A stretch of 64,000 nt of DNA, taken from positions 7,689,649 through 7,753,648 of the forward strand of contig NC_081146.1 in NCBI RefSeq assembly GCF_958295425.1, given 5' to 3'. The notes under the pieces are model-generated. The model saw only the letters and a program-made list of their open reading frames with translations. It was not told the DNA's origin and ran no database searches. Of this stretch, positions 14,445 through 40,100 are shown in pieces (within the stretch, counting starts at the first letter, position 1; every line of letters starts with the position of its first letter). Origin of the DNA: Solea solea (taxonomy: Eukaryota; Chordata; Actinopteri; Pleuronectiformes; Soleidae). The position numbers and the translations under genes were made by a program.

Positions 14445-14946
14445 GTGAGTAGGTCTTTCTTCCAGTTACTTGCGACATTCTGGGAATCGGCAGCATGGAT
14501 TGGCCCCCTGGGTTTTCTGTATGATGAGATCATCTCTGTGGACACAGACGTTAGCACCTCTCTACGGCTGCCTGCAGGAAGGGGACTTTCCCTTCAATTC
14601 CTGTGCCGCTGCTGCTCTGCATCTGAGCTCACTGAAATGACTAATCACTGGCCTCTCTATCTTTCTGTCTGTCTTTGTTTGTCTGTCTTTCCCTTCCCTC
14701 TCTCTCTCTCTTTCTCTTTCTGTCTCTGCTTAAATCCCCTTTCAGATTGAGCCGAAAAGAGAAGAGAGAGACCTTGACTGAATGAAGGCACCAAACTGCG
14801 GCTGTTATTATAGGATATTCTTTTGGAAATCGTCTGACCTAGACCTGCATTCAGCTCATTGTCCTTGACCCCATTACCACCACCAGGTACATTTGAAAGT
14901 CTTATACTGGGCATCCCACAGCATCCTGCGTCTCCCCCTGTCTCTG

Positions 14947-17900
14947 ATGGACCAGAGAGTGAAGGGGGGGACCCCTCCGGCCACAAACTCCACTCTGAGC
15001 CCCACAGCTGCACTGGAGGACTCAGAACAGGACCAAGTGGCAGAGAAGAAGAGACGGTGTGATGGGGAGAACACAGATGTGGGGAAAAAGGAGCAGGAGA
15101 AAAAAGGAACAGGAAGGAAGAGAGAAGGAGACAAGGGGGCAGTACTGGAGTTGCTCATAGAGGGGCGCTGTGGAAGCTCAGGGCAGCAACAGCTTCAGAT
15201 CTCTGGCAAAGAGACCAGTTGCCCTGAGGGCAATGTACGACTCCGGATGGGAATTCAAGCAAAACGCACCAAGAAACCACCCAAGATCTTGGAGAGCTAT
15301 GTCTGCAAGCCCACCATTAGGACCTATCAGAGACAGGGCAGGGGAGGGCTGCTGAGGGGGGACACTGAAGGATTGGGGCAGCAGAGTAAAAGCAGCTCTA
15401 TTCCAGATGAGACAACCAGAGAGCAACACTCAGGCTTGGATGTTATTTCATCACTATCATCTTCGTCGTCGTCACAGCAACTGCCATTACCATCCACCCC
15501 AGCCTCAGTCCCCACCATAGCCAACCAAGGGTCAAAGTCTGCCAAACAGGTAAGTTAAGGACAATCCTCACCAACATACAGATTATTTCATGTGAGCTGC
15601 CAATATTAAACTTCTTATTACTTTATTATCTTAAAGTAAAAAGTAAAACCGTCACAGTGACTGAAGTTATTCAGATGTACAGTAATCAATAGGGATATTT
15701 CAATACCACTTATTTGCGTCAAATACAATGCAAATATTGCAACTTTCAATATCTACTGCTACTGATGCAGACGTTTTACATATTTTAAAATACTAAACTG
15801 TAAATAACACATTTGATAGATCTACTACTTAGCCACACCGTGACTCCTTAAAAATCTGTTGCTGCTTTTGGTTTACATTTTTACAGTCTGTGCTTAATCC
15901 AGTGAATCAGATGTAATGTTTTTCTTTTTCCAGTATCGCGTCAGCTCTTACCTTGTAACCAATAGGGTATCAGTGCTATAGCTTTGATTTGTTTCTGCAG
16001 GCAAACATCCACCAGAAAGGGATATGTGGAGCAAAATTTCATGACTTTGTGCTCAGTTGTAATAAGATCAAATAAGGTATTGTCTCAATGCTGAAGCTTA
16101 AGCAGCACTTTTAAATAAACACACCTATAAATAGGACAATGTCACTGCAATCCTTTGGAGCAATTACAGACATTGGTCCATCGGTCCTTAAGACAATCAC
16201 CTAAGGGGGATCTTATTGCTTTAGCTGCTCAAACACCACTCAAGCTGCAGCGTACCAAAATTACAGGACAAGTATGAAATGTCAAGCCTTCTCATCTGTA
16301 TTAGTGGCAATTTATAGCTACCAATAGCACAGCTTTCGCTCTCTCTTTCTGTCTCTGCCAGGCACACTATATCTGTCCCTCTCTTCTATTTTTACATCCC
16401 CTCTTCTCTACCTGCTCACATTTATCTTTCACTGCCCCTCTTTCTTTGTCCCACTCCCGCTTCTCTGTTTCTTTGCCTTTGTAGCCTTTGTATTTCTCTA
16501 TTCTGTGTCAACCCCATTCGTGTTTTCATCACTTCACTCTCTTCTTCTCCACACTGTGCCCTCTTTTTCTGCCTGATTGAGTAATTTACTCCTCACACTC
16601 TGTTTTATTGTTCAGACAAAAACAAAAGCATTTTAGTTATTGTTACTTCCCCATTGAGAGACTGTTGTCAAGTGCAAACTATAGATGTCACAGCCTTTGC
16701 TGTTTATGACAAACATTATGTGCTTGCATTCCTCAGGTTCCTGTCAAGCTGGCCGATAAAACAGAGGTGAATTCAAATGGTTCATCTGAGAGAGCGAAGA
16801 AAGAGAGGCTTCCTAGTATCAATGGTCAGCCCGTTCCTGCAGGACACAAATCCTGCTCACCCACAACAGACCAGGCTGCTTCAACTACTCCTTCCACACC
16901 ATGCATCCAGTCTGCATCTGAGACCAGAAATGAAAGAAACACCACCAAGAAACATAACGGTTTGGTACGGACAGCGAGACAGAAGGGACTATCAAATGGA
17001 AAAGTCTGTGCCAACAATCTTGGCACCTCCTCGAAAATCAAAGTTGGAAAAAACAGCAGTTCTTCCTCTATTTCTTCCATGGACTCCTCGTCAAGACCTC
17101 CAGTCTCCACCAGCTCCCATAGAGAACTTAGCCTGTCCAATAAGAGTAATCCAGACTCGCCTTCCTCTCCCTCAGCCACCCCTAAACCACAGTCTGCCCC
17201 CTCTGTGGATCTCTCTGCCCAATCTCAAGATCAGAATCCCTCTGTACAGACCTCACTGGAGAAAAAGAGAGAGAAAGAGAGGAAGACAAAGAAAGAGAAA
17301 CGGAAAGACAAAAAATCTAAACGAGATAGGTTGGAAGCTGAAAGAGCAAAGAGTGGTGACGAGGAGGGCAAGAAGAAGAAAAAGGAGAATGGGAAAGATG
17401 GAAAACCAAGGCATGGTAAACAAAAAGCTGAAAGACAAAGGACTGACGATAGGTGGAGAGATAATCTGAAGACTGAAAGAGGAAAGGCTGAGAAAAAGAG
17501 GGACAAACTTAGTCCAGACAGACAAAGAACAGAAGACAATAATCAGAAATGTGGTGAAACATTTGATTGTGGTAAACTAGATAAAACCTGTAAAGTACTG
17601 AATCCAGGCAGACCAGAAGAGAAGAATGAGACAGATGACAGTTGCGGGTCAGTTAAACTAGCTGAGCCAATAACAACAGGTGAAACTAGTAAATCAAAAG
17701 AACAAGACAGCTCAAGACATTCAGCTGTGCCTCTAAGCCATCCCTCTTGTTCTGCTCCTCCCACTCTGCCAACTCTGTCTGCCCGTGCCCCAGTTTCTCC
17801 CCCCTCTTTCCCCCAAGAGCAAGACAGCCGCCCACTAAAGAAACGTAAAGCGAGAAGGCCCAGCTGGACCAAGCTGGTGCACCGCGCTCATAGAGCAGAA

Positions 17901-20900
17901 AATCATGAAAACCCTTCAGATTCCCAACATAATCCTTTACTAAGTTTTCCCCAGAACCCCAAGATTTCTCTTCCTGCCAAGGCCAGTTTTCAGCATACAG
18001 ACGACACACATACGGTAACTAGCGCATTAAGCAGCAACTTATCCGCACTCTCCTCTGCAACCAAACCTCCATCCCCAAAGCAACCCATGTCAGACCCTAG
18101 TCCCCCTGTGTCCAGATGCCCCATAACTCCTACTCGAAAAAGGGGCCGCCCTCAATCCCACAGCTCTAGTTTAAATGGGCCTCCACCTAGACTTTCAGCA
18201 AATGCTGTTCCAGCTGAGGAGCCTCTTCTTGGGTGTAACGACATTCAGAAAGCCCCTGTGCTGGAGCCAAGTCCGGTACTTGCAGCTCAGTCTAAATCCA
18301 GCCCCAAGAAGCGTGGCCGTCCTCCCAAGCGACCCCTCCCCGAGGACCAGAGTGAAGATGCACTGAATCATGCTGATAATACAGACAGGAGTAAAGATTT
18401 TCATACTTCTGACAAGGGGAACAGGCAGCTTAAGATCAGGAGGATTATTAACGAGATGAAGAAAAGAAAGAAGAGGAGACTTCACAAAGTAATGCTGTCC
18501 AGTTATGTGGGAAAGGAGGGAAGGGGTGTTGAGGCAGCAGATGGTGAGACCACTTTAAGAATGTGTAAATCAATAGAGTCTACAACAGTACAGACACTCT
18601 CAGCCCTGTCCTCCTCTTTTGGGAGTAAGCTGGGCCCACAGATCAATGTGAGCAAGAGAGGGACCATCTACATGGGCAAGAGGCGAGGACGCAAGCCTAA
18701 AGTCCAAACAGCGAATGTAAATTCCAATGCCCAGAGCTCCACTCAGTCGTCTCTGTTTACCAATCCCACTGAAACATCTCTCTTCTCATCTACCCAACCT
18801 CAGCCTCCTCCTCCCTCTCACCCTTTTCCGTCCCCATCTCTTACACACTCCAGTGGGGCTCAGAGTCCCTACAGTGAGGGAAGCGTCACCGAACCAACAT
18901 CTACCCTACATTTTCCTCACCACTTCTCCCTCCCTTCCCCATCATCATCCTGTACCTCCCCGCGTCCTCCCTCCTCCTGTTCTATCTCTCCATTTGTGAA
19001 GAAGTGTTGTCCATGCCAGGGAAGGCACCACTTCCCCTTTCACCAGTCATCATGTAAGCTCTCCTTTCCCACCACTCCACTACACCACACACCTGGCTCT
19101 CCTGGCCACATCAAAGATGCCACCCCCTCCCCAAGGAGTGAATCACATAGTGAGGAAACACTGCCTAGTGATAGCGGAATTGGAACAGATAACAACAGTG
19201 TGTCTGAGCGAGGGGAGATGAGGAGAGCACGAGGCATTCTCACACTGGGCCAGGGGTCAGGAGTGATGCTTGGGAGTCAGAGACACCCCTCTCTTGTTGA
19301 CCGTCCCTCTCCGGTTTCCTCACCTCCCTCTCATATCCCCAGGCACACAAACCTAATCAGTAACTCAAGTAATGTGGAGCGGCACAGAGACAGACATCGG
19401 CACAGGAGGAGGGATTACGACTGTTCCTCTCCTTGTACTTGCTTGTGCCCCTGCCCAGGACACAATAAGTGCACTCATTCAGACTTTTATCCTTGCCTTG
19501 GGCACAATGCACTGAAGAGACAGAAAAACAAACATAAAAAGAAGCACCAGCAGCTACACACACAGGATCCAGACTTTCTGGCTGAACTTGAAGATCTGAT
19601 TGTTCAATTCAGTGAGGTCCATATCGGAAGACGAAGTTGGATGAGGACAGAATTGGGACAAGGTTTTGATGGGAGTGGGTCTGCAGCTGGAGGAAGGCGC
19701 CATCACCCCTCCTCCCATCCGCACCGCTCCAACATCTTCAGGATCAATCTGAATGGTTTCTACTCACCTCATCCTTCATCTTACCCCACTAATCCTTCCT
19801 TCTCCCCGCAGCCTTTCTACCCCTGCCAGCCAGTGCATTGTAACAGAAAGCCAGACCGCAGGCAGTGTGGCTGCCCCTCAAAGTTCCAGGAGACCATTGA
19901 AAATATGGGCTTTTACAGCAGCTATCCCCCAGCCACCGCACTTTACCATCACCTCCCCAGCTCCTACTCACTTCCATCTCCCCACCAGTTTGGCCCCCAT
20001 CAGCTCCATCATGCCCATTTCCTCCTCAACCCCGCCAGATTCCACAGACGCAGGAGCAGGTTGCTGAGAGAGGGAGCATTGGGCGGAGAGGTTGATGGAG
20101 ATGTAGGAGGAGGCAGTGGAGGAGGCCCACATCTCAGCTCAGGGTTCACATCCAGCCTTTCCTGTGGCTGTGGGAGGAGCGAACACAAACACAAACATAA
20201 ACACCGTCACCGGCACTGCGAGCGAGACATGGATGATGATGAGGAGTTGCATGGGGACGAGGAGGAAGACAGCATGGAGAGGGAGAGATTGACCAGCTCA
20301 AAGCACAGGCCTGGGTTCATTTTGGGGCAAGGAGATGAAGGAAGGAAAGGGACAAGAGGAATGGGGAACATGCTGTCCAAAGAATCGCCTTGGTTACGTG
20401 AGAATGAAAATAATTCTTTCTCTGCTGCTGCTGCTGCCACGTCATCATCATCATCATCACTGTCCACTGCTGAGAGGTACAAACACATGTCTCTCACCTC
20501 ACTGGGGCTGGGTTCCTCTCACCTGTCTTCATTTGGAGGAGGCTGGGGTGGGCTGGACCAGAGCCGGATGAAATTTGGCAGCCTGGGGGGCTTGGCGTTT
20601 GGAAACCCAAACCCCAGCTGGAGAGGCTTCACTGGGGAGCAACAAACAGGCAGACTGGTTGCATCAGACATCAGATCTTCAGAGGACGAAGATGGCGACG
20701 ACGCTGAAGAGTCACACCTGTACAGGACATCACCGTCCCCAACACATACTAACCTGTTCACATCTGCTGCCATGGCAACAGGAGGGAGGGGTCCAAGGAG
20801 TGGATTGTCCAGGAGAATTTCAGGAAATGAAGATAGGTCATGGAGGAGAGATGAGCCAGCTTGGAGAGAGAGGAGAGATTCAGGTGAGGATGCATGGACG

Positions 20901-23900
20901 ACTCAAATCTATAAATATGTGGGTAAAACAATCAGCAACATCTGTGCTTCTGCCTGATGGCACAAGATTATGTTATGTTGGCATTAGAGCTAAAATTGCA
21001 TCAAATACTTGAAACACAGTAGCATTTGTTTGTATTTCACTGTGCTGATAAATGCGTCTTAAGTTATCTGACAGCCCAGTTGTATGATGTTATTATTTTT
21101 TCCAGAAAACATGAATATGTAGATTGCCAGTAGTAATCTAGACGCAACGGTGCCTTCAAACTGAAATTTAACTACAGTAATAGGATTTATTTCAAGGGCA
21201 TCTTTTCATGTGCCCATTTTGACAGATCTTTATATTTGCACAATGTAGCAAAGAGACTGTGGCGTTGAGAGTTTGCCCAACATAGTGGCAGACTGGCAGC
21301 ACTGCTTTTTCTCAGGTGGTGTTGAGCTTCACATCAAAGCCTGTAGGGTGTGTAAGACGAAACAAGACTCTGTTCTTTTTACAGCCAATTTTAGACTCCT
21401 TCTGCTGTGCAGGAGGCGCACCTGACACACGCACACAGACAAATGCAACCACTCAGCAACCACCACTCTCTGATAGAATTTTTATGTAGTGTTATAACAG
21501 AGAGGCAGCATCTTGGTGGGAATCTGCCAGAAAATCTTTGAAATCTTCCCAGTCTGAAGTGAACCACACACTGTTACTGCCTAGGGCAACCAAGTGAACA
21601 CAATCATTAGTTAACCACCAAATTGGCTATTTAAAGCCTGGCCTATCCCTCACTGCTGGCCAACAGAACCTGTTTGACTTGGAAAAATCCAATCAGGAAA
21701 GAGTGGTCATAGTTGTCAGGGAGTGTGGAAATTTGACCAAAAAGATAGATGACCACTGGATTGATTGATGGTGGAACAGCATGAGGGTCAGACAAAGGAA
21801 ACATGAGTTCATCATCCAGCTAAACACACACACGTTTAAAATACAGTATGCTAGTAGAGGGACTTTTCTTTTTCTGTCTGCTCAGCCCTTTGAGATTGTG
21901 TGTCACATTAACTAACTGTATACAAAAATGCATACGTGTGCAGGCTCACAACAAAGAATTATACATGTCGCTGCATAGTGTTGTGGTCTATTGTGCGTGT
22001 GTGTGTGTGTGTGTGTGTGCGCGTGTGTGTGCATACATAAATCACTTGTTAATGCATTTCCCAGAAGTGATCTGGTCAGAGGAAATGTTGTGACTCACAT
22101 AATCTGTGGCCCATCCACATGACTCAGCCCAAACGGGCCTCACCTCACACCTCAATCACTGATCCACATCTGTCTCATTTCCTCTTCACCACTTACACCC
22201 CACCAACCCCCACCTCAACCCCTCCTTCCCTGTTTCTGTTTCAACAACTGCAGGTTTACAAGGTGACTCAAGAAGCCGGGGGCAGCAGAAAAGTGTGCCA
22301 GCGCCTGACAGTGTGACGGTGAAAAGCAAAAGGCGGCCAGGACGGCCCAGGAAGAACCCACTGCCCTTCACTGCATCCTCCCCCACACACTTATCCACAG
22401 CTCCCTCCATGTCATCGCTCGACCTCGTGCCGGGACAAAACCACAACACAGACGCAAGAGAGGTGGGCGGGAGAAAAGAGGAAAGAGCGTTAGAGAGAGA
22501 TGGAGGAGGTGTCACGATGCAGCAGGTGACAGAGTTGGAGCTGCAGGCCAGGAAGAAGAGAGGGAGGAAAAGAAAACATGGTGACTCTCCCTGTCATCAG
22601 AGGTAAACACTCCCAGTTGCATTAAAAAGCACCTGAGCTGGTTGATTTGAAAATTCAATACAACCACTCACTACTGCCATATTAACCTATTGTTTTCAGC
22701 ACTGTGTGCTAAACCAGTGCCTTTTCTTCCTTTCTCCTTTTCCCTCTCTATCATTCTATCTCTCTCTCTTCATGCTTTACTTTTAGTGTTGCTGTGGATT
22801 TGCCCGAGTGTGACACCCTCCCTGAATGTTTTAGCCAACCGGATGTGGATCAGGCTCCGTCCCAACCAGTAACCATCCAAGAAGAGGAGAGAGCTGACAG
22901 TCATCCCAAGAAGAGGTTTTTGAGGGCTGGTCTTTACTCCGATGATTACAAAACCACAGAGTGAGTCGAGCGGTTCCATAAACAAGCAGTGATAACAGTT
23001 TGACTGTTTTCAGTTTTTGTGTTCATCAATAGTTGTTCTTGTCTTTCCTAGCCCTCCCGCTAAAGCCAAGCAGAAGTGCAGAGAGAGTTTGGAGTATACA
23101 CCAGGGGAGCACGAGTACACACTTTTACCTGCTCCCATACATGTTGGTGAGTGGATTAAAAAAAACAATATTGTTTAATATTTCACTGTAGTTTTTTTGT
23201 GGTTGTGACTGTGTATAAACTGCCTTTGTGTCCACTAGGGAAATACCTGAGGCTGAAGCGGATTCATTTCCAATTACCTTATGATGTTATGTGGCTGTGG
23301 CAGCACAACCAGGTATAGTAGTGCTTCATGGCACAGAGAGAAAAGACTTACAAACATTCAGGGATGTAATTAATTCTCATCTTCTTTGCTTACAGCTTCA
23401 GAGACAGCCCGCTGTTCCACTGAAGAGGAAGCGTCGTTACTGTGAGTTGCCACTATTAGATGTGCTTTCTTGTTTTTTTAATTTTTAACATCATGTGAAA
23501 AAAATTTTAAAAGAAAGTTTTCTTTCCCAGAATTGAAACAGCTAAAAGTAGCAGTTGCCAATTCACCACAAAAAGAACTGGAAGTTCTGTTTATCAGCGT
23601 TTTCTCCAATCCATGGTTTTTGAAATGACATTTTTTTCTGATGGCTCACATTTGTGCTGTCTCCTGTTTTGAGAGGCTCTGTTCTTCTTGGCAAGCATTT
23701 GATTTTATTTCTTACCACTGTTCCACTCAATTTAGATAAATGTCTCTGGAACTGCCACATTGACTTTGGAAATATGATCCGTTAGCTATTGTCTCAAGAA
23801 ATTTAGTTGGAAAAGAATATTGCAGTTATCGATACTATCAGAATCGCAATGTTAAGGAATGGTGACAAAAACGTCTGGTTCAGTTGAAGGTCTTGATCAG

Positions 23901-25257
23901 TGTAAAATGTCTCTGTGTCTGTTTTCCCAGGCCGACTGAAGGAAAGGACCATATCTCCTCACCAGACAACAGTGAGTTTATTAGGACGAGTAAAGAACCT
24001 AACTTTGCATCTTTTGTTCTCTAAAACTTACCACCATCCCTCCATTTTCTGTTTCCTGTGCAGGAGGAGAGTTCCAGTGACATTACCAGTCTGTTCCCTC
24101 ATCTTGACATGGATCCTCTGACCAGCAGCGAGAGGTATGGACAGACCGCAGGATAAACTGCTTGTTACTCCGGCGCAGACAGCTAACTTTTCTGTGCATG
24201 TGTGTGTGTGTGTGTGTTGGGCCAGGAGCTTTGTGGTGAAGCACCACGTGTTCCTCGTGAGGAACTGGGAGCTCATGAGAGACAGACAGATCCGACTGAG
24301 GATACAGAGGGACAGAGAGAGAGACGCAGAGGGGGAGGAGAGGGACTCAATAGCTCCGTCCTGTGATGGAGCCAATGGGGACGACAGCCACATCAAGTCA
24401 GGTCCATGAAGCAAGTGTGTGTGTTAGTTTTTGTTTCTGTAGGTGTCTGTGTATGCATTTGTGTTTGTGGTCAAACTCATTTGTACTGTGTAACCATCTT
24501 TTGTGTCCCGTGTATGTCTTTAACTTTGTGTGAGTGTGTGTGTAGGTGTGTGTGTGTGTGTGTTTGTGTGTGCTCTGCTTACAGCTCGTCATCTTCATAT
24601 TTGGCTTGTGTCTCCATATCGTACTCAGCAGCACAAACTAAGCAGTTTTCCAACCACAGAATTTCAGCCTGCAGAAATGTTTCCCCATTTCTGTCATCCA
24701 CTGCTGGTGTCCAAAAACCCAGCAGGCATCAACTTTCCCCATTAGCAGTGAAACCACACAGTTTCCATCAAAAGCTCCCTGACTGATTCAGGATAAGAAC
24801 CAAGGAGGACATTAGCATAAACACAGATAAATATCTGTTAAAAAGCAATGTGCTTTTTTTTTTTTTTCCTTTTCTTTCTTTAAAGCCGTCACTGACATAC
24901 TGTACTGTTTGACGTCTGACCCTCAGATCAGCAAGTGGGGGTGGAGGTGACGGTTATCAGCAGTGACCCCCTCCATCAGAGTCAGGACACCTCCAGCTTG
25001 CACACTGCCAGCCCCTTTGTGAGTTAATACCACTTCCCACGTTAAAACAAAACTTTTCTTTTCGGAATGCAAATTTCCCCATGAATAAAAATCTGTTTTT
25101 GCAATTACTCCTGCATGTTGGTTCACCACAGCCCACCAGAACCCAGAGCAGAGAGGAGGAGAGAGAGAATGAAAAACCAGGGGAAGAAGAGGCCTGCAGC
25201 AGAGAACAGAGGAGGAGGCGGCTTAATGATTTACTTTTGACCCTGCAGCACTCATAA
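14947..25257 (+). CDS. ash1l: ASH1L-family protein lacking SET, bromodomain, PHD and BAH (1,997 aa)
   Basis: ASH1L is normally a trithorax-group H3K36 dimethyltransferase of about 2,970 aa. Coding exons: 14947-15549, 16737-20883, 22254-22602, 22787-22960, 23052-23146, 23239-23312, 23396-23441, 23931-23971, 24064-24134, 24226-24401, 24927-25018, 25132-25257. The frame is open and every junction keeps phase. The ATG at 14947 gives MDQR, like human MDPR. Conserved blocks include [62 protein letters not shown] and [13 protein letters not shown]-hooks are at 18301-18340 and 22330-22360. [20 protein letters not shown] is followed by FQLP (about residue 1800). After PLKRKRRY the protein jumps to the post-SET linker ([18 protein letters not shown]), then after HIKS to an arginine-rich tail, [12 protein letters not shown]. 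The AWS-SET, bromodomain, PHD and BAH exons are absent from the DNA in between. It is probably a duplicate of a full-length ash1l elsewhere. The donor at 24401 (CAG|GTCC) is weak. Confidence 0.9.
16737..20883 (+). CDS. ash1l: Giant N-terminal exon of the ASH1L-like gene
   Basis: A 4,147-bp exon, open throughout, entered at CCTCAG|GTTCC and left at ATTCAG|GTGAGG (phase 1). It encodes the low-complexity, basic N-terminal half: a Lys/Arg/Glu-rich stretch (17260-17530), AT-hook-like [10 protein letters not shown] and [21 protein letters not shown], the conserved [14 protein letters not shown], the [10 protein letters not shown] block, and a His-Lys run around 20178-20220. The final residues include [11 protein letters not shown], a human ASH1L landmark. 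Opposite-strand and shifted open frames over this exon are shadows of its biased composition. Confidence 0.93.
21993..22031. repeat. (GT)n microsatellite
   Basis: GT/GC dinucleotide tract within the intron 20884-22253 of the ASH1L-like gene. The rest of that intron shows no recognisable feature. Confidence 0.85.
23239..23312 (+). CDS. ash1l: Exon carrying the FxLP (MRG15-docking) motif of the ASH1L-like protein
   Basis: This 74-bp exon encodes [15 protein letters not shown] followed by a tryptophan-containing helix (MWLWQHNQ). FQLP is at 23268-23279. FxLP is the known docking motif for the MRG domain of MRG15 (MORF4L1), and in ASH1L it lies just before the AWS-SET module. The motif survives here although the catalytic exons that should follow are missing. 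Confidence 0.85.
23442..23930 (+). other. Intron standing where the AWS-SET-postSET exons should be
   Basis: This 489-bp intron joins codon-phase-1 exons ending PLKRKRRY and beginning [10 protein letters not shown]. The AWS-SET-postSET module of ASH1L needs roughly 250 residues in several exons. No open segment, cysteine-rich AWS-like stretch or SET signature (such as NHSCDPN) appears in any frame here, even in degraded form. Confidence 0.85.
24402..24926 (+). other. Intron standing where bromodomain, PHD and BAH exons should be
   Basis: A 525-bp interval between the exon ending HIKS and the exon starting DQQVGVEV. It contains (GT)n tracts (about 24533-24570) and a T-rich run (24847-24868) but no bromodomain, PHD or BAH coding sequence, which would need about 400-500 residues. 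If the weak donor at 24401 is not used, translation ends four codons later with SGP and a TGA at 24407-24409. Confidence 0.8.
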
Positions 25258-25299
25258 GCTAACACAGAGAGGTAAGTAGATCATCAGGTACAGACAAAG

Positions 25300-25746
25300 A
25301 GCATGTTCAGACTTGGTATTAACATCCGTTCTTAGTGATCCGTTCACATCCAGATCACGCTAGTCTGAATCTGAATCCATACTCAAATTTAAGTAGACAA
25401 ACCACATTCAGAGTTGATTTGAGGACGTATGTGTTCCACATTTTTCCGCTGCATGAACACAGTCTGTCCTCTGACCAGCGGTAGCTTCATACATTCATTT
25501 ATTTGCAGCCACACTTGATCGTCCTGTAATTAATTTTTTCTCGCAGCGTGAATACAGCTTTGGTTTTACTCAAGCTCCTCATCTCTCTCTGGCACACACA
25601 CACACGCACACACACAGATGCACAGACTCTAGATCTGTTCATATTTGGTCACTGAAAACGCATCTAGGATGCATTTTAATGCCAGGTGTGAGTACTTGGT
25701 ACTGCCTGCATATGACGGATGTTGACACCAGGTGTGAATGAGGCCA
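25300..25746. mobile_element. Non-autonomous DNA transposon (MITE-like) with imperfect terminal inverted repeats
   Basis: The left end (about 25300-25330) reads GCATGTTCAGACTTGG then TATTAACATCCG. The right end (about 25714-25746), read in reverse complement, gives CATTCACACCTGGTG then TCAACATCCG. These are matching inverted ends about 450 bp apart, with no open frame between. It lies directly after the ASH1L-like stop codon, in the 3' UTR or a 3' UTR intron. The target-site duplication is not clear. Confidence 0.55.
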
Positions 25747-27798
25747 GTGAGGTTCATGTATTGTTTTGTTTACAGTATTTCACCTTCATGTAGGTGGGAG
25801 CACTCTGAAAAGGGACCAGGCCCACCACTGGACATATGGACACAAACTGATGTCACACAGCACTGCTATTAACAGTAGCAGTGCCGCAGAGAACAAGCGA
25901 GAAAAAAAGATGCAGAATTATAGAGGCTAAAACTGCAAGAAAGACATCTCACACACTGACAGACGAGTGTGTTGAACCCAGCACTCTGAAGGGCATCACA
26001 CCAAGGATGAAACCATGGCAACGCACCTTTTGTCCAAGCGGCGAGGGATGAAAGAATCAGATAGACTGTCCCAGATGGAAGACAGAAACAGACCAGCTGA
26101 AATGAATTTGCACTAGTGCTGGATGAACAAGCACACTAAAGACTGTATGTATGCTGAGTGGACACACTATAAATGCACACACATACACTTTGACTGCTCT
26201 TACTTCAGCACCTTAAGCAAACTGGGAAAGACAGAGTTTGAAAGTGGATGTACATAATACTCTTTGAGCATTTGGGTTCTGAAGTTTCCATGAGACAAGG
26301 AGCTCACAAACTGCCTGGAGGAACAAAAATGTAGCCCAGGCCCTAAGTAGGTCAAATTTGAACCCTAATTTCCTTGTAAGACTTTCAAAGTCACACTGCA
26401 CCTTTGGGAAAATGGCACACGGGGAAAGTAAGCCAGTAAAAAAAAAAAAATCTGTTGAGATAGTGTTAGGGTTTTTCTTCACATAGTGTCTGCTATGTAC
26501 CAGTGAAAAGGCAGGGGGAGGGGGCTGGGCTTAGTGATAGGAATTTTGGCAACGCTGCAAGAGAATTTCTAATGAGGTTTTAAGAAAGAAGTTATTTTTG
26601 AAAAAAAACAAAAAAAAACAGGCAGCTTGAGTACTGTCTGCTAAAGAAATGGACAAAATATGTTCACGATAGGAATGTTTATTGTTGACTGTTTTCAGTA
26701 TTGCTTCCTTTGGAAGGGAGGGAGGGTGTAAAAAAAAAAAAGTGTTTCTGTTTACTTCAGGCTGCCTTTGAGAATGTTACGCTCTTTGCTCCGGAGCATT
26801 GACAATCAGAATGCTGTCAGAAGGGGAGAAAGACACAAGAGAGGAAAGGGAATGAAAAGTGATTTGCCCCAAATGCTCTGTAGAAGTGCCATGTTGTCTT
26901 GTGTACCTTACTAAGCGCTCTCATGCAGTCTTTAAAAAGCAATATCTCCTCTGGTAACAACTATATAAGGACTTCCTTTGTTGTTTTGATTACTATTTTC
27001 TTTTTTAAAGTTGTGAATATTTGCGGTTTGGACGTCATTTTCTTCTGTACAGATGCAGAGTAGTTTGTGCTTGGGCTAATCCACTTTGTGGAAGTCACCG
27101 TAAGCATTTAGTTTCATGTGAATGTACATAGAGAGAGAGAGAGAGAGAGACCTGTTTTCCTTCTATCAGCAGTAGCGTGTAAATCTATTATCATACATGA
27201 CAATATTATTGGGATTATACATAAAGGATAATAACTATATCTTTCATTTACTAAGATGTTTTTAACCAGATATACAGCTGACCAATATATCACACATTTC
27301 TCCTTAAAATTGATGATGATTGTATGTAATTTTTGTAGAATTATATTATTTGTCTCTTTTTTAGATGAACGTAATCCCTTTTTTTTTTTTTTTTCTTAAA
27401 TTGGTCAGACAATCAGTGACAGTGAATTAGTTTGTTTGCAGTGTTACATTTTTGCTCTCTTTCAGTAGTGTGGCTTCTAATACCAAGCCAAGAAAGTGCA
27501 ATTTCTTTGACTGTTTACATACTGTACGTATATTTTTCCTCTTTTCTTTTCTCTCTTTTTTTTTTTTAACTAAGAGCACTATGTTTTTGCCAGTGGATGA
27601 TTACGTTTATAGCAAAGGTACCCATTAAGAGTTATTCACTAGTTTGCATGACATGTATCCTTCGCCTGTTGCCTCTAAAGATGTGCATCTGCAAACAAAA
27701 CATCAAATGCTGTTGAAACTCATTGCCATAGAATGTCTGCTCAGATGTTTTGCCTCTATATCCATAATAATAACAACAACAATAGTAATAATAATAAT

Positions 27799-27804
27799 AA
27801 TAAA
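27799..27804 (+). terminator. Candidate poly(A) signal of the ASH1L-like gene
   Basis: AATAAA at the end of an (ATA)n run, followed about 70 bases later by a long (GT)n tract (27872-27892) that would serve as a GU-rich downstream element. Confidence 0.45.
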
Positions 27805-27830
27805 AAAAGCATTTTATGTCCACTAGTACT

Positions 27831-28368
27831 AAACTCCGAAAACTGCGTCAGTTACAAAGCCTTCTGCTTAAAGTGTGTGTGTGTGTGTGTGTGTTTGTGA
27901 GAGTGCTGCAGTGATGCTAATCAGCTTGAGCTAACAGTGCTATCTAGTGGTGTTATATTGTACATCTCACCCTGTGTTGTCCTCCATAATGACCCACAAT
28001 GGAGGACACTATCAAAAGAACATGGTAACAAGATGGGGGAGGGCTGCGGCTCACACTGGAGATTTATTCTCCTCTTTTTGCCCTTCGTGCGACTCATCCC
28101 AGGGCGTCCTGAAATATTTGGATCAAGCGAAGCAGAAGTGAGAGGAATCTCCTGAAGTGTTCCCACTGAAACGTAGTAGGGTCAGCAGTGTGTGGACAGG
28201 TCTTTACAGGGAAATCGTCTGGAACACTCAGGGGAAGTCCTGTCACATTTAAGAGGATACGTACTTCATGTGGTGAACACTCTCTCGACCTTTCTCTTAA
28301 GTCGTTTTACCCATCAGTGCAAATAGATGAGTCACACAGCGGAACAAGATTGGTTTATACTGATCCTT
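27831..28368. other. Spacer between convergent gene ends
   Basis: About 540 bases separate the inferred 3' ends of the ASH1L-like gene (plus) and rusc1 (minus). Apart from (GT)n there is nothing recognisable. Confidence 0.5.
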
Positions 28369-28374
28369 TTTATT
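28369..28374 (-). terminator. Candidate poly(A) signal of rusc1
   Basis: AATAAA on the minus strand (AAATAAAAAGG context), giving rusc1 a 3' UTR of about 2.4 kb. Usage is not proven. Confidence 0.4.
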
Positions 28375-30780
28375 TGGTGTATTTACAAACAAGCACATGC
28401 AGGAGGTGGACAGTGACTGACACTAGGGGGGCACTCAACTAAATGCAATAGTGGGATACTGGGGGCCGTCTACAGGCTACATGACACCAGTGAGATAAAA
28501 AGGAGAACACACACACACACACACACACAAGTTGAAGTGCAGAATGTGCAGATACTCATTTGTGCTCACACTCGTCACTGCTTTCACTGCCTCATATGTG
28601 CATAAACACACACTCAACCCAGATAGAGAGAGAGAGACATTAGATGGGACATTTAGTTATTCCTCTCCAAAACCTCAAGATCAATAAATACATCTAATAA
28701 ATTAAGAGCTTTTCAAAACAAAATGCATTTAGAATATAATCTCACATTATAAAAAAAAATGAATCAACACCATGTGTCAAAGAGTGAACTGATTTTATAT
28801 CACTTCAGTTTTCTATTATGTCTTGATTTCTTGTAAAACACCTAGGTAATATCCATTTGATGGCATTTTGCTATGATCATTCGTTACACATTATGAGCAC
28901 TGGCTGAGTTTTATGCTACTGGACTTTTGCTGTAGTGACGGTGAACTCATGCTACATGGCATCAACACAAAAAAGATGGAGAAACTTTGAAGGACTGAAC
29001 TTTTCCCTGATTGACATCACTGAAATGTTCCTGCTGAATTACGATGAGGTCATTTGGAGGCAGGTCCTTTCTTTATTTCTTTTTTATTTCTTTATTTTGG
29101 ACCAGCTTTTTTTTTTTTTTTTTTTTTTAACTTGTAACCATTTAAGCGAGTACTTTTATCTTCACGTGCACAGTAACATTAAAATTATAATTATGACTTT
29201 GTACATTGAACTATTATGCATAGTCATAAATACAGAATCTAGAGAATAATTATGACACAAAAGCAACATATTTCAGGTGAGCAACTTTAGGGTCAACATA
29301 TCATTTCCACCACGACCACTTCTACTACCACTATCATTAATAATATCAATGATTATGAAATATGGCAGGAAGTTAAATATGAAAGCTGAGGTACAAGGTG
29401 AAAACCAGCCACCAAACCTTGCAGACTTCACTGTAGCTGTTGGGATTTACATGAATCAACGGGCTTCTTCATATTTTTAAGTCTAGATAGAGAGGAACAA
29501 GAGCTGAGCATAGTTTAGTGAGGTGTTCGCTCACGTTGGCCCTGTGAGGTTTTCCATGGATGGAGAGAGAGAAGCTACAGACTGCTGTTGTATGATATTA
29601 TTAACTTAAATGTCTGGGACCGATGGTTATTCTTCTGGCATTATTCCAAAGCATTCATGGCACACTACAATGCATACGTGTTTGTTTTTTTGTTTGTTTT
29701 TTTTAAGTTATGAATAATATTACATGTCTAATTATTTCATTAATATGACATTATAACAAGACAGTGGTGATACATAAAAGTGGGGAAGTCGCTGCATTTC
29801 ATACCTAAAGGAAACACACACACTGTTCTTTTTTCTCCAGTGCGACTGGCGGCCATCGGATGTGTGTGAAAAGTCACAGATGTTAAGATAAAGAATGAAT
29901 CCATCCATTATTAATCATCGCCCTCCTCGGCGAGGCCACCGCATCGAGCTGCTCATGTTTCGCTGCCTTTCTCTTGTTCATCTATCTTCCCATCTACCTC
30001 GGTAATAATCTGAATTTATATACCTATATATATTTATATATCTATTTATATATATTTTTATGTATATTTTACAGTCGCATATAGTCTCGGAAACATGACA
30101 AACTCACATGAAACCAGGCGATAGAGGTGAGAGGTCAATCGAACACGGATGTACACGGCTACAATTCACGACATTACTACGCAGTATGCATCAGGAGCTT
30201 TGGGCCCCGGTGCTTTCTCCACTCAACAACCTGTGAACCACGGCTCTGCACCGCTGATGAACACAGGTACATACGTGGCTAACACCAAGCTGCTGACTGT
30301 CGCCTCCTCACAGCAGAAGCCACTGATCTGAAAACGCACAAACGGTTTCGACAGCACTGAACGTCCGCTGTGGTCGTTTTCAGACCAGCGGCTAAGAGCG
30401 AGTAAAGCAGAGACTGAGAGAGAGATACTTCACTCTTAAGATCCAAAAGGCTTCCAGTATGAAGTGGTCAAAATTTGATTTGAGTGATTATTTCACACCA
30501 TCTGCTGCATTACTGCTGCTAAAACCCATTAGTTGCATGCTGCCAAACTGGATGAATTGTTATGGGGAAAAACCCTTATGCTCATAAAGGAAGAGAGCTG
30601 CAGACGGCTCACAGTGAACGCAAAGCAGAACAGATGGTGTTGTGCACTCAACTCAAACTCTAACCAAGCAAGTGTGAAATATCCCTTTCAGAGTAGAGGG
30701 GGCCTCACCATAACGTTTCCATAACTGCCTAAAATATATATATTTTTTTTTTATGTAGTGCAGCAGTTATGGCGCCAAAG
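28375..30780 (-). other. Putative 3' UTR of rusc1
   Basis: No coding exon is seen on either strand. It contains (AC)n at 28506-28529, a T-run at 29107-29128 (a poly(A) tract on the transcript strand, perhaps a retroposon tail) and an extremely AT-rich TATA-type tract at 30015-30073. Confidence 0.45.
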
Positions 30781-33700
30781 TCACATGATCAGGGACGTGT
30801 ATCCGATAGGTACCAGTCCCTCTTTGTCTCCCTGACGACAACGGATCCAGTCTTGATCGACGCCTCCCAACACCTGGAGCTCCTCACCTTTGCAGAAGCT
30901 GAGCTCCGAACCTGTTCCGTTGTGGTCGCACAGTGTTCGCACTGACCTGAGAACACACAGCAGAGACCGCCTGAGCCAAAATGGCCGACAATAAACAACA
31001 ACAACCACCACCATCACCACCACAAACCAGAACATCATGTGTCCCAGTCTCGCATGAGTCACAGTGGCAGGATGAAGTCACACTGGTGAGTCACTAATTA
31101 TATTACATCAAGAGAAGATGACTTTATGCATCGCAGGACAGAGAAAGTCTGATCTATCACTTCCCAACCAATGTCATGACTCACACGTCCTCATACCTGA
31201 GTGGTCGGGGTTTGTCCTTCATCTCCAGTGACTCAGTCTCTCTCTCTGACTTTGGCTCGCTTTCTCGCTGAGGCTCCGGGGCCCTCTTTAACATCGGAGC
31301 GGAGGTGCTGCTCACCATTCGGGTCAGTGCCGTGACACCAGGAGCCAACCACTGAGAGGGACGCCTGAAGAGAGACAGAAGAGTCACTTACAGACCTAAA
31401 CCAAAGACAGTTGCATAGTCATGCAGTTTATTTGTGAGGTGTAAGTCCTGAGACACACCGGGTACAACCCACATCGACGACAGCCAATGAGCAACCAGCG
31501 CGTATGTTTGCCATAGCGATGGGACGATACCACTTATTTGTGTCCGATAACGACACAATATCATTTTAGACCATTTATGAACGTATGAAGCTGTTAACAG
31601 CACATGTGTGCTGAGTCATGTCAAAGACATCATTCTCCAGATGCCTAACAAATATTGCTGTCCCAAAAAGAAGACATAAACAGCCCAAAACATGACTCAG
31701 CCAAAACGTTTTTGCTGATTTAAAGTGAAGCATGCAATATATAGGATTTTTGGATTGTATCGGATTCTACATTTTTATCTGTCCGATATCTGATCCAGTG
31801 ATTTTAACCAGTATCGGACCAATACTGACCCATACCGATTCTTTAATTAAATAAAGAGGATATGGTATAATGTATCGGATATGAGCCTTTGTTGTGTGTC
31901 CCTTTGGCTGCAAGTCCTTTGCTTGCGTCTTCATTACTCATCTTTGTATTGACTGGAACAATCAGCCAATCACAGCGATCTCTCTCATCAACAGTGATGC
32001 CGACTCCAACAAGGGTCAGTGGCGTTGCATACACTGTCCTGACAAGGTCAATGAGCGTCAGGGCAGTGTGACCCAGACTTAACAATGACATCAGCAGCAG
32101 CTGCAGTCGCTGATGTCATTTATTCATTTATTATGTATTCAATGTCTCAAGACAAAAGGCAAACCTGGTTGGCAGTGAGTGATTTGTGGGGCTGCTGGGG
32201 CTTTTCGAAGCTCCAAACAGCCGGCCCAGACCCCAGGGAACCTGAGCACCGCTGCTGACCGGAGCGTAGTCACTTCCTGGCTGAGTGTGGAGGTCCGGCA
32301 AGTCTGCCCTCATTTCCTCCCTTCTACCTGCGGACAGGCTCAGCTCATTCAGGTTCTGGCTCAGTCGGCCTCCCCAGCGCATTACAGCACCCCATCCCTG
32401 CTGGATCACCTACGATTAAAAGAAATGTCAGTCCTGCGTGACCTCACCCTCATTAATGATTGAAATATATTGAACAGTTACAAAAGAAGAAAGCTACCTG
32501 TCCTGCCTGCTGAGCAAGGCTGTCGTCCTCCATGTTTGGAGGAGGTAACGCTTCAATTTCCTTCTCCTGTACCCACAAAAGCTGTGGACTTGTTTGACTG
32601 ACAGTGTTCGAAACGTTTAAAGTCGCAGCACTGAAATCGGTCGCCTCGCCTGAACTCTTTGGATCAGTCACTGGTGACCATTTTTCTTTAGCTGCCTGAT
32701 GCTCTGGGCTTCCAAAGTCTACTTCTGACAGGCTTCTAATATATTTGCTGCTTGGGATTTTGGATTGAGACTCCTTCGTCGACAGCTGGACCCCTGCACC
32801 CGGACCGGGCGGATGAGGGATCTCTGGGACGTGACTGTCTGGCTCTAAGTGGTGGTGCTGGAAGAGCAGGTCAAGGTTGAAGGTGAGGAGACTGAGAGGC
32901 TGCAACACAAGGAGCAGCTCCTCAAACAGAGGCTGGCAGGTGGTCAGAGACAGAAGCATGAAGGAGGAGGGATGGTAGAATGTTTCCAACACATCTGGGA
33001 AAAGACAAAAGACTGTCACACGCGTCTGCATGTTTTAAGAAGAGGAGACATGGACACGCAAGTGATGGAAACTTACCACAACACGACTGAAGGTGAGACA
33101 GCCAGAAATCCAGAAGCTTGGTACTTAAAGGGAAAAACAGAGAGGAGAAGAAAAGTGAATATACACAGGGAACATGTGCAGAACCAATTTAGACTAAATA
33201 GAAATACTTACTTCAAGAGACCAAGGAGGAATGCATTGAACCGGTGTTTGTTACGCCTAAGCTGGCCCAGCTCCCCGACTCGAACGTGTAGGTTGAACAA
33301 AGCTTGTGTTTTAGGACCTGGAAAAGTGGGTTGATGAGGAGAAAAGAAAGCGCACATAAATACACTTAAAGAGAGTCAGACAGAGAAAGGGATTCAGTGA
33401 AAAACTGCAGTGAAGCTTGCTCTTAGAGGCAAATCAATATCTGCATCCTGCTGTTCACTTTATTCAGTATTTTTGGCATGAAAATCAACACGCATTGACA
33501 AGCGCGTATGTGTGGGAAAATACGAGACAGACAAATCCGCAGCTTTATGATTGTATCCTACGGGGAATAAAACCCAAATAAATACCAGCCTATAAATCAA
33601 AATCCTAAAAAAAACAACTCTAAACAGGTCATTTTCTGGTACCCTACCTGGTTTGGTTGAGGCCTGCACTAAGCCCCAGGCAGAGTTTGGCCTCCTGCCT

Positions 33701-36700
33701 GCAATCAGGTCACTCTGGTGGGGTTTCAAGCCATCGGTCAGCAAGCTGTGCAGCGCAGGGCAGAGGCACTGCAGCACCAGACGGCCCAGAGATGGATTTA
33801 CAGAGCTGTCTCCTGATAAGGCCTGAGAGGAGAGAGGAGAGGAGAGGAGAGGAGAGGAGAGGAGAGGAGAGGAGAGGAGAGGAGAGGAGAGGAGAGGAGA
33901 GGAGAGGAGAGGAATGAGGAGTGTGAGAGGAACATGTGGTGGGAGTAAAGGGGTAAACGGAAGAGGAAACGATGCTCAGTGATCAGGAGAGACAGGGGAA
34001 GAAATCAGACAGGGTGAATCAAGCCAGGGAGGGGCGGCGGGATGGGTGGAGTAAACAGGATGATGAGGGTGAGCGATGATTTGGGCCAGAGGTTTGGGGG
34101 AGTCAGATTAAAAAGATATATTGCAACTATGAATCTGGGTTATCTAAGAATATTCTAGTACCTTGTTAACTGAGAGAGACTGAGGAGAGATGGAACCAAA
34201 TGTGTAGAGTCAGAACAAGAAGAAAGGGAGGGAAATCATTTTCAGACAAACAATGCATTTATCACTTTTCTATATTGACAGAAGGAGACTGATCATGTTT
34301 TTTTTATCTGTTGGGAGAAATAACATTAGGGCTGAATGATTAACTGGTCTCAGGAGACCACAAACTTGGTAATTAGGCCACAAATAAATGACACAACTAC
34401 TTTAAAGTGAGATTACTTTCAGTAAAGTCCTGTTATTATATTATTGGACGTTTAATTTATTATTCATTTAACATAAGCACAACTTTTGTGAAACAAAGAT
34501 TTTTCATACATTAATGGTGTGTCTTGTGCTAATGCTCCATCATGTTTTAAATCCATTAACACGGTGTATACTGAATGACAATGTATACATCATATTGAAT
34601 CGCAATTTCAATATCTATCTGAAAAACTAACAATTAGGTATTTTCCACCAAATCATTCAGCTCTAAAGAAGTGTGCGTACGTGTGTGTGTGTTTGTGTGT
34701 GTGTGTGAAACAAACAACTACTACTCTAAGGGAAATAATAATGATGTACATTAAGCAATGACTGACCTTCTGAACCACAGTCCGAGATGAACTGAAATGG
34801 GCCAAAATGGTTTCCACTGCCACATTGACTGCACTGACCAGAGCTGGAGGGACAACAATGGTCTGTAGTTAAACACAGAAAGTCACTGACGCACAGCTGT
34901 GCAGGAGACAAACGCTCACCTTTCTTCTCCTGCAGGCACAGCGAGGACAGACCAAGACCTCTCATTGAAAACTTCACATCTTCGCCCATCCAGGATGAGT
35001 CTCCCCTCTGTACGGAGCCAGCGTATGAGACACTACGAACAGCTGACAAAAGAAAAGTGCAATTACTCACGGCACAAGTACGAAAAAAAAAAAAAAGACA
35101 AACTCAACAAAAGCAAAATGAATCACCAGACAAAAAAACTGAAATATCCGTGTTAGTAAGAGCAATTAAGCGATGGTGAAGCATCGGATAAAGGAAGTTA
35201 GAAGCAGATGGTGCTACTGACAATAATTAGTGTGCGAGTACATTCTGTAAATACTGCTTCAAAGTGGCGAGCATTCAGCATCTGGAACTACGACAATAAC
35301 TTCTTGTCTGCATCAGGGATTAACCGGATCCTGTGCATAAACCTTGACTCACACAGACCTAATGAGAGTAGAATCATACACAGGAGTGAAACTGCGTGAC
35401 CTACCACAGGATTCATTAAAGTTAAATTAACACACGTGTGAAGGGTTGTTTAGACGTTTACATTTACCAGAAATGACGAATGGGACACTGTGGGCCTTTA
35501 GTTTGCCTTATTGCACGCACTAATAAAAAGCTAGGACTTTAACAGTATAACAACAACAATGTGTGCTTTGCATGAAATGCATGTGTCCATTTTAATACAG
35601 TGTGCACAAACAACAAGAACAAAACAAACATGGAGACGGACAAGACAATACCAACACGAATACAGACGGACAGAGGAGGACACAGAGAGAGGGGGAGTGA
35701 TTAGAGTGGCCCTTGACACCCACTGACAGGAGCAGCTGTTATTCTTCTGGATGCCTTTTGCAGATTTGAAAGGACAGTGTAGATAAGAGGTTATCAGATG
35801 ACCTGCAGGAAGCTGCCTCATGATACATAAAAACAGCTCCCCCCGTTGACCCCGTTCTTCCAAATCTGCAAAATCTTCTGGGATTGAAAAAAGTGGCACA
35901 AAAAAGGGTGAGGGCCACCGTGTCCAGAGCCAGGTACAAAGACAGGAGAAGACAGACGTACATGAAAGCAAGATGTCAGAGACCCACAGAGAAAGAGAGA
36001 GAGAGAGGAAGTGTGTAGAGTGTGGGGGAAGGGAAGAGAAGAGAGAAAGAAATCTTACTCGCCAAACGTGACTGCGGAGGAGCCTGGTAGAGTTTTGGGG
36101 GTAGGGGGGGAGCCCTGGTTGGTATAGGAGGGTAGAGGTTTGGATAGTAGAGGGGAGCAGCGAGGGCAGGCAAGGTGTGCGAGCGGGGAAAAAGCGGGGA
36201 GCTGAGGCCTGAGGAGCCCGGAGGGGGAGCTCCAGGGCGCTGGGGAGGAGACAAGGCTCCAATGGGGGAGAGGCGAGGAGGTGCACCCCTGTGCAGAGGG
36301 CAGTTCTTAGGGTGGTATAGGTAGTAGGTAGGCAGCGGAGGAAGTTCTTTGAATTTCCTGGCCTTATTGCTGCTGCTGCTGCTGCTGCGGATGTCTACGT
36401 GTGAGTGCGAGTGCTTTTCTACACACAGTGAATCCATTGCATTAATGCTGTTTGAATACGTCATCATGACATCTATGTTCTTATATGGAGTAGTGCAACC
36501 TGGTGCCTCAGTGGTGCCACTAAGTGGCGAGTCCGACTCAGTGTGTGTGTCATTATTCTTCTCTGACTCACTGCAGTAAAGAGAGTCAGACACAAACTTC
36601 CTGTCATTAGCGCGTGTGGTTTGCTTTAAGACGTTCTCATAATCGGGAGGGAAATCTACACCTGCATCAGCCAGAGAATCGTAATTAAAGCCAGAACTTA

Positions 36701-37116: not shown

Positions 37117-40100
37117 AGAAAATGTTAGTGTCAGTTGAGAGAAAAATGCACATTAATGCATGCTCTCCAGCAGATATTGTCATCATGTAACATCATGCAG
37201 TAATGCAGCATCTTAAGAAGTCTAATAGTTGATTGACAGGTACAAACTAACAGTGTGTGAGCGTCAATGGAGCTGATTTATGAAGGGCAATAATGACACT
37301 CTTCCACTTAGAACAGTTTGACACAACAGGAAATGATAACATCTGGTGAACAGCCCGTCTCTCGGCTACATGTTTAAAATACACGATCGACCCTTGATCC
37401 ATACCTAAAACGTCACCATCAGTCATAAAGATTGATCACATTTTTATACACAGTTTCACTTTTTCTTTCACATTTTCCTTCACAGATACGAGTATTAAGT
37501 ACGAATGCCAGTCTTGAAGCCAAAGCTTTCGTACTTCACTGCAGATCTTGGACAGATCACCTCTGGATCACCTTCTCTCCTGTCTCTCCCTGCTGTTCTC
37601 TGCCTTTGTTTTCTGTCTCTGCCTCCCCTCCCCTTACCAGCAGCACAGCAGCAGTACAGTGTAATGCTGAGTCAGTCAACAGACTCTTGTCTTCTGTCCG
37701 CTCGCGCTCAATCACTCTGACTGTCTAAAACTTTGGCAACAATGTCCATTAGACCCAATGACTTACTGATAAGCTGTGATCTACAAAATGAGCTGGAAAG
37801 CAACCATACCGTGGTCTGACTGTGCAGTCTCCGACAGGGGAACCAACACATGACACTTCCTATTTTTCCTACACTGGCTCTCAGCCATTGGCCAATAAAC
37901 TGAGCGCCACCTCTTGAGATCTTAAAGGTGTACACACCTTCTAACTCCACGGCCACTGAACCTTCTTGCACTGAAACACACACAGCACATACCATAAATA
38001 GAGTGCTCAAACTCATTTTCATGATTACAAAGCCAGTGTAAACGTGTGAAATAACGCGTAAGTTATGATATAATTTTTAATATAAATGGTTAAACTGAGA
38101 AATTAGAGGCAGATGGCGACTGGGAGAAGTCGAACCATTTTTTTTTTTAAACGAAGTTACACACTGCTGTAGCTGGACATTGTCAATCTAATGTTCAGTT
38201 TCGGTGCGGCCTACTGCAGCACTGCGTGCGATGAGTAACTTGATCTGAGCTGTCTGTGCCACTCCAGGGAGCATGGATGAGGGTGAGGAGGCAGGAGAGA
38301 CAGCGAGAGCAGAAAAGCACACAAGCATCCTAAGCTGATGAGATTTAGCACTAATAAAGGAGGGAAGTAAAAAAATTACAGAGAGAAGAACAAAATAAAA
38401 GAGGTGTAAGCTGAGAGTTTAAGGGAGAGAAAGAGGTAGAAAAAGGTGGTGAACTCAGTGGGCCCTCCATTATCCTTCACTCCTCAGTCTGAAAAGTGGA
38501 TGAATAATTGAATAAGGCAGTGGTGACATCACGCTGAGATAAACAGAGGAGGAAATACTGGCTGGAAAGTTTCCAGCCTCCAATTTCTCTCCACATTATC
38601 TCCACTACTCCCTCTGTCTTTATCCCTCTATCCCTCACTTTCCCTCATCTTCTCTTTCCAGCTCTTTCTGTCATGTTTCTGTCCTCCTCCAACCGAAATC
38701 ACCAAAATCTTCATCGTCATAATGTATCCATCATCATCCTTTTCTGTGACTCATGCTCACAATCTGTCTCTGCTCTCTTTCCATCTCCCTCGGTTTATTG
38801 TTCAGTCCAAGGATATTATTTGTGCAATACTGAGAAACCAGCCGACCGTTAGTCTATCATTCTCCATCTGTTTCTCTCCATCATCGCCCCAGCTCAGATT
38901 TGTTACGTCGCCCAATTTACGCTGAGCTACTGTGTCGTGTTAATTTTCTACACAAATACTCATACACACACTCCTCTATCATTGCTAAATGATCATGAAA
39001 TCCATACTCACCTGTAGTTCTTGATTGCAAACTCCGCCCTCCATCTGCTTGTCCTCTCACCTCCACCTCCTCCTTTTTTTCTTCCTCCTTTCCTTCTTTT
39101 TCCTCCCTCTGAACTTCCTCGCTCTGCCACTCTCTGCCCACGGTCCACAGACTGTTTTCGCTGACGGAGCAGCCCATCTTCTGTGATGGGCACAGCTCTG
39201 GCTGTCCACCCTCCTCGTCAGCCCTCTGGAGCATCTCCTTCAGAGCAGCCATGGAGGTGAGAGCAGGTGGTGGCGGCATGAACAGCGCCTGAGCCTGAGA
39301 GGTGTATTCCCACTGGATACCATCGCTTCCGACCTTCTCCCTTCTCCACTTCAGGTTGTACAGTATATCTGGATCCGGGGTGATGACTGTGGGGTCAGGC
39401 TCTGGGTCAGTGATCACCCTCGTCAGTGGGTAGTTGCTCTTGTTACGGAAGCGCAGCTCTTTGAAGGTTGTGACGTTTGGAGCTGAACCGGATGAACCAG
39501 TCTTCTTTTGACTCTCCAGAGGAGATTTTCTCATTTCAGGGGGCGGAGGTTGTGGTGGGGCGTCGTTTTCGGGTGTGAATGCTATTAGCCAGTCAAAGCG
39601 ATCGGGTTGTGCAGAGTTGGCAGAAAGAGTGCTGACTTTAGGGTGTGACAAAGATGGCGGGATCGGTGGTAAGGGGCGAGGAGGAGGAGGAGGAGGTGAC
39701 TCTAGCAACTCAGTGGAGTAATGGAAAGTCTCAAAGCTCATGTCATTTGCTTTGGTATCATGTGTATTGCTAAGACCAGTGCCACTGTTCCTCTTCCTTC
39801 TTCTTGCCATCTCGGTGAATGTGGTGGTCTTTTGTGTGTCTTTGCTCTCCTCTTTTCTTTTAACTTCTTCAACTATAGCTACCCTTTCATCTCCGATGCT
39901 GCTGCATCCGTCTTTATCTATGAATTGGGAGTCACACTCCTTCTCCTCCTCCCTGTCTTTTAGTCTAAACTCATGTGATTCCACGGATCTGGATGGAGGA
40001 AGATCTACTCCATCTACCTCATCGTCTAGCCCTCCGACACAGACGCCAAGCTCTGGACTGAGTTTGAGTAGTTCAGCCTGAGTCAATCCTGCAAGCATTA

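Follow-up and report, generated by a model that had tools for sequence, protein, structure and literature searches.

ASH1L (KMT2H) is a human and vertebrate H3K36 methyltransferase whose SET domain is activated, in flies and in humans, when MRG15 binds a docking segment of the protein (PMC5963871, PMC8106495, PMC5696344). Binding of one partner to the MRG surface is thought to exclude the others, and PALB2, MSL1, Pf1 and MRGBP, none of them catalytic, place an FxLP motif on that same surface (PMC8701324). Stripped forms of Ash1 have been engineered in Drosophila as laboratory alleles lacking one or two modules (SET, PHD or BAH), and some of them still reside on interphase chromatin (PMC6829142, PMC8426247). 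Here we describe an ash1l-derived gene of the fish Solea solea in which all of these modules have been lost naturally. The gene occupies positions 14947-25257 on the forward strand of a 64,000-nucleotide stretch of contig NC_081146.1 (assembly GCF_958295425.1, positions 7,689,649 to 7,753,648), referred to below as the window. It shares with ASH1L the neighbours of the locus, the N-terminal blocks, AT-hook-like motifs, the MRG15-docking segment and a linker, but it is without AWS-SET-postSET, bromodomain, PHD and BAH, and its C-terminus is shortened. A natural SET-less trithorax-type protein has a counterpart in Lpt, the SET-less half of MLL3/4 in Drosophila. Lpt was born by gene fission and its SET half is still supplied as a partner, whereas no catalytic half lies within the 64 kb studied here.

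The 12 coding exons (Table 1) splice into a coding sequence of 5,994 nt that encodes 1,997 residues, with an in-frame TGA at 14866, upstream of the start ATG. All 11 introns have GT-AG borders and matching phases, and the sole in-frame stop is the terminal one. A first-order Markov model built from the composition of this coding sequence gives an expectation of 75 in-frame stops (minimum 49 across 500 simulations), against 0 internal stops observed, and the alternative frames hold 55 and 120. The marks of a processed or decayed pseudogene (intron loss, frameshifts and internal stops) were not found in the gene, which keeps its 11 introns. The original prediction, made from the letters of the window, had given the outer limits of the gene, the borders of the two gaps and 12 coding exons joined in phase over an open frame of about 6 kb, all of which are borne out.

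The catalytic and histone-reading domains are absent. Measured by tblastn, similarity to ASH1L ends before AWS, restarts beyond the post-SET linker and ends again before the bromodomain; the human ASH1L C-terminus matches the flanks of the first gap with E values of 3.8e-8 and 7.4e-8 before it and 3.5e-6 after it, where the similarity beyond the gap, like that of the N-terminus, was measured against a human ASH1L sequence not taken from a database record (below, the unreferenced human sequence). No Pfam family was reported in the 1,997-residue protein at E <= 10. The lost domains were likewise absent by Pfam from nine further open reading frames (eight in or across the two gaps and one over the last two exons), which yielded just two sub-threshold matches, to DUF2827 (0.044) and Transposase_21 (0.19). 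In tblastn searches of the 64-kb window in six frames with seven queries, we did not find AWS-SET-postSET (best E 0.81 at 13309), the bromodomain (0.11 at 57766), BAH (0.86 at 47195) or PHD (0.019 at 53065-53133, about 28 kb beyond the gene). The PHD-like match has the lowest E value of the four lost parts and is taken as chance; the best matches all lie either beyond the limits of the gene or in frames unrelated to it, and none lies inside either gap. A scan of six frames of the window for 13 protein motifs returned three matches, two of them in retained ash1l-like exons and the third a SET-like match at 58135 that we judged to be chance. Relocation of the SET, bromodomain, PHD or BAH exons to another part of the window was thus rejected, as motif scan and tblastn gave nothing beyond chance.

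These results uphold the earlier description of ASH1L sequence flanking two gaps from which AWS-SET-postSET, bromodomain, PHD and BAH are missing. The gap sizes it gave, 489 and 525 bp, also stand as the lengths of introns 7 and 10, whereas the seven remaining introns downstream of 22602 measure 83-184 bp, and the greater length fits deletion scars. Both lost blocks start and finish in phase 1, so their removal preserves the frame. The 1,370-bp intron at 20884-22253 may mark a third lost exon. Without AWS, SET, post-SET, bromodomain, PHD and BAH, the product does not belong to the ASH1-type H3K36 methyltransferases. The broader statement that all reader domains are lost is correct as regards the bromodomain, the PHD finger and BAH; still present are the MRG15-docking segment and five AT-hook-like motifs of the DNA-binding type.

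When the last 298 residues of the predicted protein were compared with the PDB by phmmer, they matched ASH1L (6INE_A, 2.6e-17, and 6AGO_A, 6.5e-12), and the only other matches were three at E 0.6-0.8. The matching part is exactly the MRG15-binding piece, which agrees with the human protein at 33 of 48 residues, and it stops where AWS would start. Both the KYLR and the FxLP motif of the docking segment are intact. KYLR has been termed invariable, and an Arg substitution in the same region greatly weakens MRG15 binding (PMC5696344), while changing FxLP to RxRP abolishes co-purification (PMC5963871). The segment reads FQLPYDV, which conforms to the MRG-binding signature, FxLP(x)2-3 and then a hydrophobic residue, the position at which Ile2051 has been placed (PMC8701324). 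With numbering anchored on Ile2051, the prolines of QPAVP align with human P2064 and P2067, which have been proposed to relay activation to SET (PMC8106495). Identity to human across the docking region is 42/57, made up of 36/44 through HNQL and 6/13 beyond it, in the part that leads to the lost SET (Fisher p 0.027, for one comparison of few residues), a drop that need not be special to this copy. Judged by its letters, the docking segment places the gene in the ASH1/ASH1L family by descent, and its signature fits an FxLP-type binder of MRG15, so that binding is predicted here as it is described for PALB2, MSL1, Pf1 and MRGBP. Unlike the gene product, those four proteins are not of histone methyltransferase descent and have other tethers (PMC8701324).

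The predicted protein also contains five AT-hook-like cores by motif match, although the AT-hook Pfam family was not reported in it at E <= 10. Against the unreferenced human ASH1L N-terminus, blastp aligned six blocks with E values from 1e-17 to 7e-5. One human AT-hook-like stretch aligns with an altered sequence here, RRQCGCPSK, indicating that part of the hooks was not retained. A 2025 paper states that there is no information on the N-terminal 2,000 residues of ASH1L (PMC11883000). The helix-like human ASH1L segment preceding RRPGRPRK, again in the unreferenced sequence, has no counterpart at 14900-25300 (best E 1.6), a lead towards the possible third lost exon at the 1,370-bp intron.

Retention of the docking segment together with the five AT-hook-like motifs leads us to propose a non-catalytic, chromatin-tethered MRG15 binder. 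We tentatively read the gene as a protein-coding ASH1L homologue, still in its ancestral place, that would have turned into a non-enzymatic binder of MRG15, a reading we consider credible if not quite probable. Two intron-to-intron deletions would have taken out the phase 1-1 blocks with the frame surviving. The AT hooks would then hold the protein on DNA while the docking segment binds the MRG domain of MRG15, for which full-length Ash1l and further FxLP proteins would compete. Alternatively, MRG15, with acetyltransferase or deacetylase partners, might be brought to Ash1l targets without H3K36 methylation. The net outcome would be that Ash1l activity is lowered or redirected. The duplication, the selection and this mechanism are what we infer; the open frame, the absent domains and the retained segment and motifs are what we observe. 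The original prediction had suggested a duplicated, non-enzymatic ash1l that possibly regulates the full-length copy. Its account stands in so far as the gene derives from ASH1L, can be spliced into an open frame and has no SET, bromodomain, PHD or BAH, and the docking segment, which it did not name, may make the suggested regulator concrete. We think it unlikely that the gene is a naturally evolved anti-Ash1l that arose after genome duplication by shedding the catalytic and reader half while retaining the dock for the activator, a selected chromatin-bound decoy that diverts MRG15 from full-length Ash1l, tunes the balance between H3K36me2 and Polycomb and was missed by surveys based on SET and bromodomains.

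Several points weigh against a selected MRG15 binder. The eroded-looking C-terminus (an early stop, a weak donor and weak exons 11 and 12) suits decay equally well, and the similarity that is independent of the PDB, at the second flank and the N-terminus, used the unreferenced human letters, set down after the window had been read. Fly Ash1 without SET, PHD or BAH fails to replace Ash1 (PMC6829142). On mitotic chromatin BAH assists the AT hooks: fly Ash1 that lacks BAH and carries mutated AT hooks attaches poorly to it, though binding in interphase is retained (PMC8426247). The contribution of BAH suggests that the present protein may be only weakly tethered. Most of the region mapped for Nurf55 (human 2065-2964) is missing here, and in fly cells 3,678 Mrg15 peaks compare with 562 Ash1 peaks (PMC5696344). 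Mrg15 peaks so far outnumber those of Ash1 that MRG15 may not be limiting.

The C-terminal end bears on the first alternative, an early-stage pseudogene in which two recent deletions struck one duplicate and the frame is still open for lack of time. For exons 24927-25018 and 25132-25257, a tblastn match to the human tail was not found, and the donor after 24401 is the weakest of the 11 (1.87 versus 3.23-9.87 by a leave-one-out matrix). Without a splice at 24401, the frame closes at 24409 as ...HIKSGP. A strong-looking donor, GAG/GTAAGT, stands at 25272, 14 nt past the stop at 25255-25257, and its position suggests that the ancestral penultimate exon probably ended there and is now shortened by the early stop. 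Provided that the 25272 donor is used, a stop this near a downstream junction would not trigger nonsense-mediated decay. A remnant of the last human ASH1L exon was sought at 25240-31000 and rejected, as the top scores were 29 and 28 and the alignments unconvincing. The stop at 25255 is the single candidate lesion in the gene, and it can be read as a tolerated shortening or as the first erosion. The early stop ahead of an apparently ancestral donor, the weakest donor at exon 10 and the poor match of the final two exons to the human tail all speak for a young pseudogene. Against it stand the absence of internal stops where 75 are expected over 5,994 nt and the GT-AG borders of 11 of 11 introns. 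The lost domains have also left no recognisable relic, though none would be expected after a clean deletion. The original argument, by which about 6 kb of open frame could not have survived random decay, holds against old pseudogenes and fails against a very recent double deletion. We consider an early-stage pseudogene somewhat unlikely.

A functional non-catalytic ASH1L protein could also have a role other than competition for MRG15, either as an AT-hook and basic scaffold or in a mixed multimer with full-length Ash1l. Fly genetics suggests that Ash1 is multimeric and that its modules complement in trans, but the complementation involves SET-less forms with BAH-less or PHD-less forms, and a protein without both is not described in the available text (PMC6829142). 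Conserved blocks outside the docking site are kept, as judged against the unreferenced human sequence, but the best PDB-anchored conservation is that of the MRG15 site, and we regard such a role as quite unlikely. An assembly error, in which two segments of a normal full-length ash1l were collapsed or skipped, is in our view slightly less likely still: the data come from one assembly, both deletions are intronic and the TG repeats and T run in intron 10 can trouble assemblers, but the error requires two independent skips, each from intron to intron and in phase 1-1, the 64-kb window contains 0 N, and the C-terminal stop and the lower identity by the first gap (6/13 versus 36/44) suggest a protein that has diverged from the enzyme.

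We infer that the teleost genome duplication left two copies, this gene and a full-length partner. In the available texts, a zebrafish survey of SET genes lists one ash1l, on chromosome 19, along with setdb1 copies on 16 and 19, and a tilapia survey of bromodomain genes also lists one ash1l. Both surveys select by domains that the ash1l-like copy lacks, and they are thus silent about such a copy. A SET-less ash1l copy is undescribed in the literature found by gene name, where an annotation as "ASH1L-like" in a genome database could have escaped, and the gene may already stand as an ASH1L-like model in an annotated fish genome database.

The analysis bears out the observation, and the gene stands out as unusual; its function is putative. 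Should selection be maintaining the gene, nature would have provided a separation-of-function allele of a gene of human autism and cancer, in which the N-terminal portion of ASH1L functions without the enzyme, and conserved non-catalytic roles would become testable. The supply of MRG15 as a limit on ASH1L activity could likewise be tested in a living vertebrate, and it would follow that domain-based surveys overlook pseudo-enzymes that retain just the docking site for a regulator. Were it instead a recent pseudogene or a fault in the assembly, it would be of little importance.

Table 1. Coordinates of the ash1l-like gene and its features within the window
Feature	Positions	Strand	Description
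Coding exon 1	14947-15549	+	start ATG and N-terminal ASH1L block; 26/39 identical, E 1e-12, versus unreferenced human N-terminus
Coding exon 2	16737-20883	+	4,147 bp; long basic/low-complexity region, three AT-hook-like motifs, ASH1L blocks
AT-hook-like RGRP	18141-18152	+	residue 670
AT-hook-like RGRP	18312-18323	+	residue 727
AT-hook-like RGRK	18684-18695	+	residue 851
Coding exon 3	22254-22602	+	AT-hook-like PGRPR and RGRK; block 11/12 identical versus unreferenced human sequence
AT-hook-like PGRPR	coding exon 3	+	residue 1612
AT-hook-like RGRK	coding exon 3	+	residue 1686
Coding exon 4	22787-22960	+	ASH1L block
Coding exon 5	23052-23146	+	first part of MRG15-interacting region
Coding exon 6	23239-23312	+	MRG15-docking core; KYLR 23241-23252, FQLP 23268-23279; PDB match
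Coding exon 7	23396-23441	+	QPAVP; end of ASH1L similarity, before AWS
Intron 7	23442-23930	+	489 bp; site of missing AWS-SET-postSET, no domain trace
Coding exon 8	23931-23971	+	short; weak similarity
Coding exon 9	24064-24134	+	post-SET linker
Coding exon 10	24226-24401	+	SET-bromodomain linker block; weakest donor; tblastn 3.5e-6 versus unreferenced human sequence
Intron 10	24402-24926	+	525 bp; site of missing bromodomain-PHD-BAH; TG repeats, T run, no domain trace
Coding exon 11	24927-25018	+	weakly supported; without tblastn match to human tail
Coding exon 12	25132-25257	+	stop TAA 25255-25257; weakly supported similarity to ASH1L tail, blastp E 0.079

In human 1q22 the gene order is FDPS, ASH1L, YY1AP1, DAP3 (PMC7273683). 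Upstream of the ash1l-like gene lies dap3 (Pfam 5.7e-10; PDB mS29 2.4e-14). Downstream, on the minus strand, we found an SH3 exon (1.9e-8) with a weak RUN match (0.0031, below the cut-off), an fdps exon (1.1e-11) and a CD20-like exon (8.8e-8). We take the SH3/RUN gene to be rusc1 and the CD20-like exon to be part of fam189b. The dap3, rusc1-like, fdps and fam189b-like neighbours indicate that this is the ancestral ASH1L locus and not a dispersed copy.

Between the SH3/RUN exons and fdps, an open frame of 1,100 residues extends along the minus strand at 38920-42219; it has no Pfam family at E <= 1 and is probably a large rusc1 exon. A tandem repeat of the CTCTCCTCTC type occupies 33463-33982 and produces long open frames on both strands.

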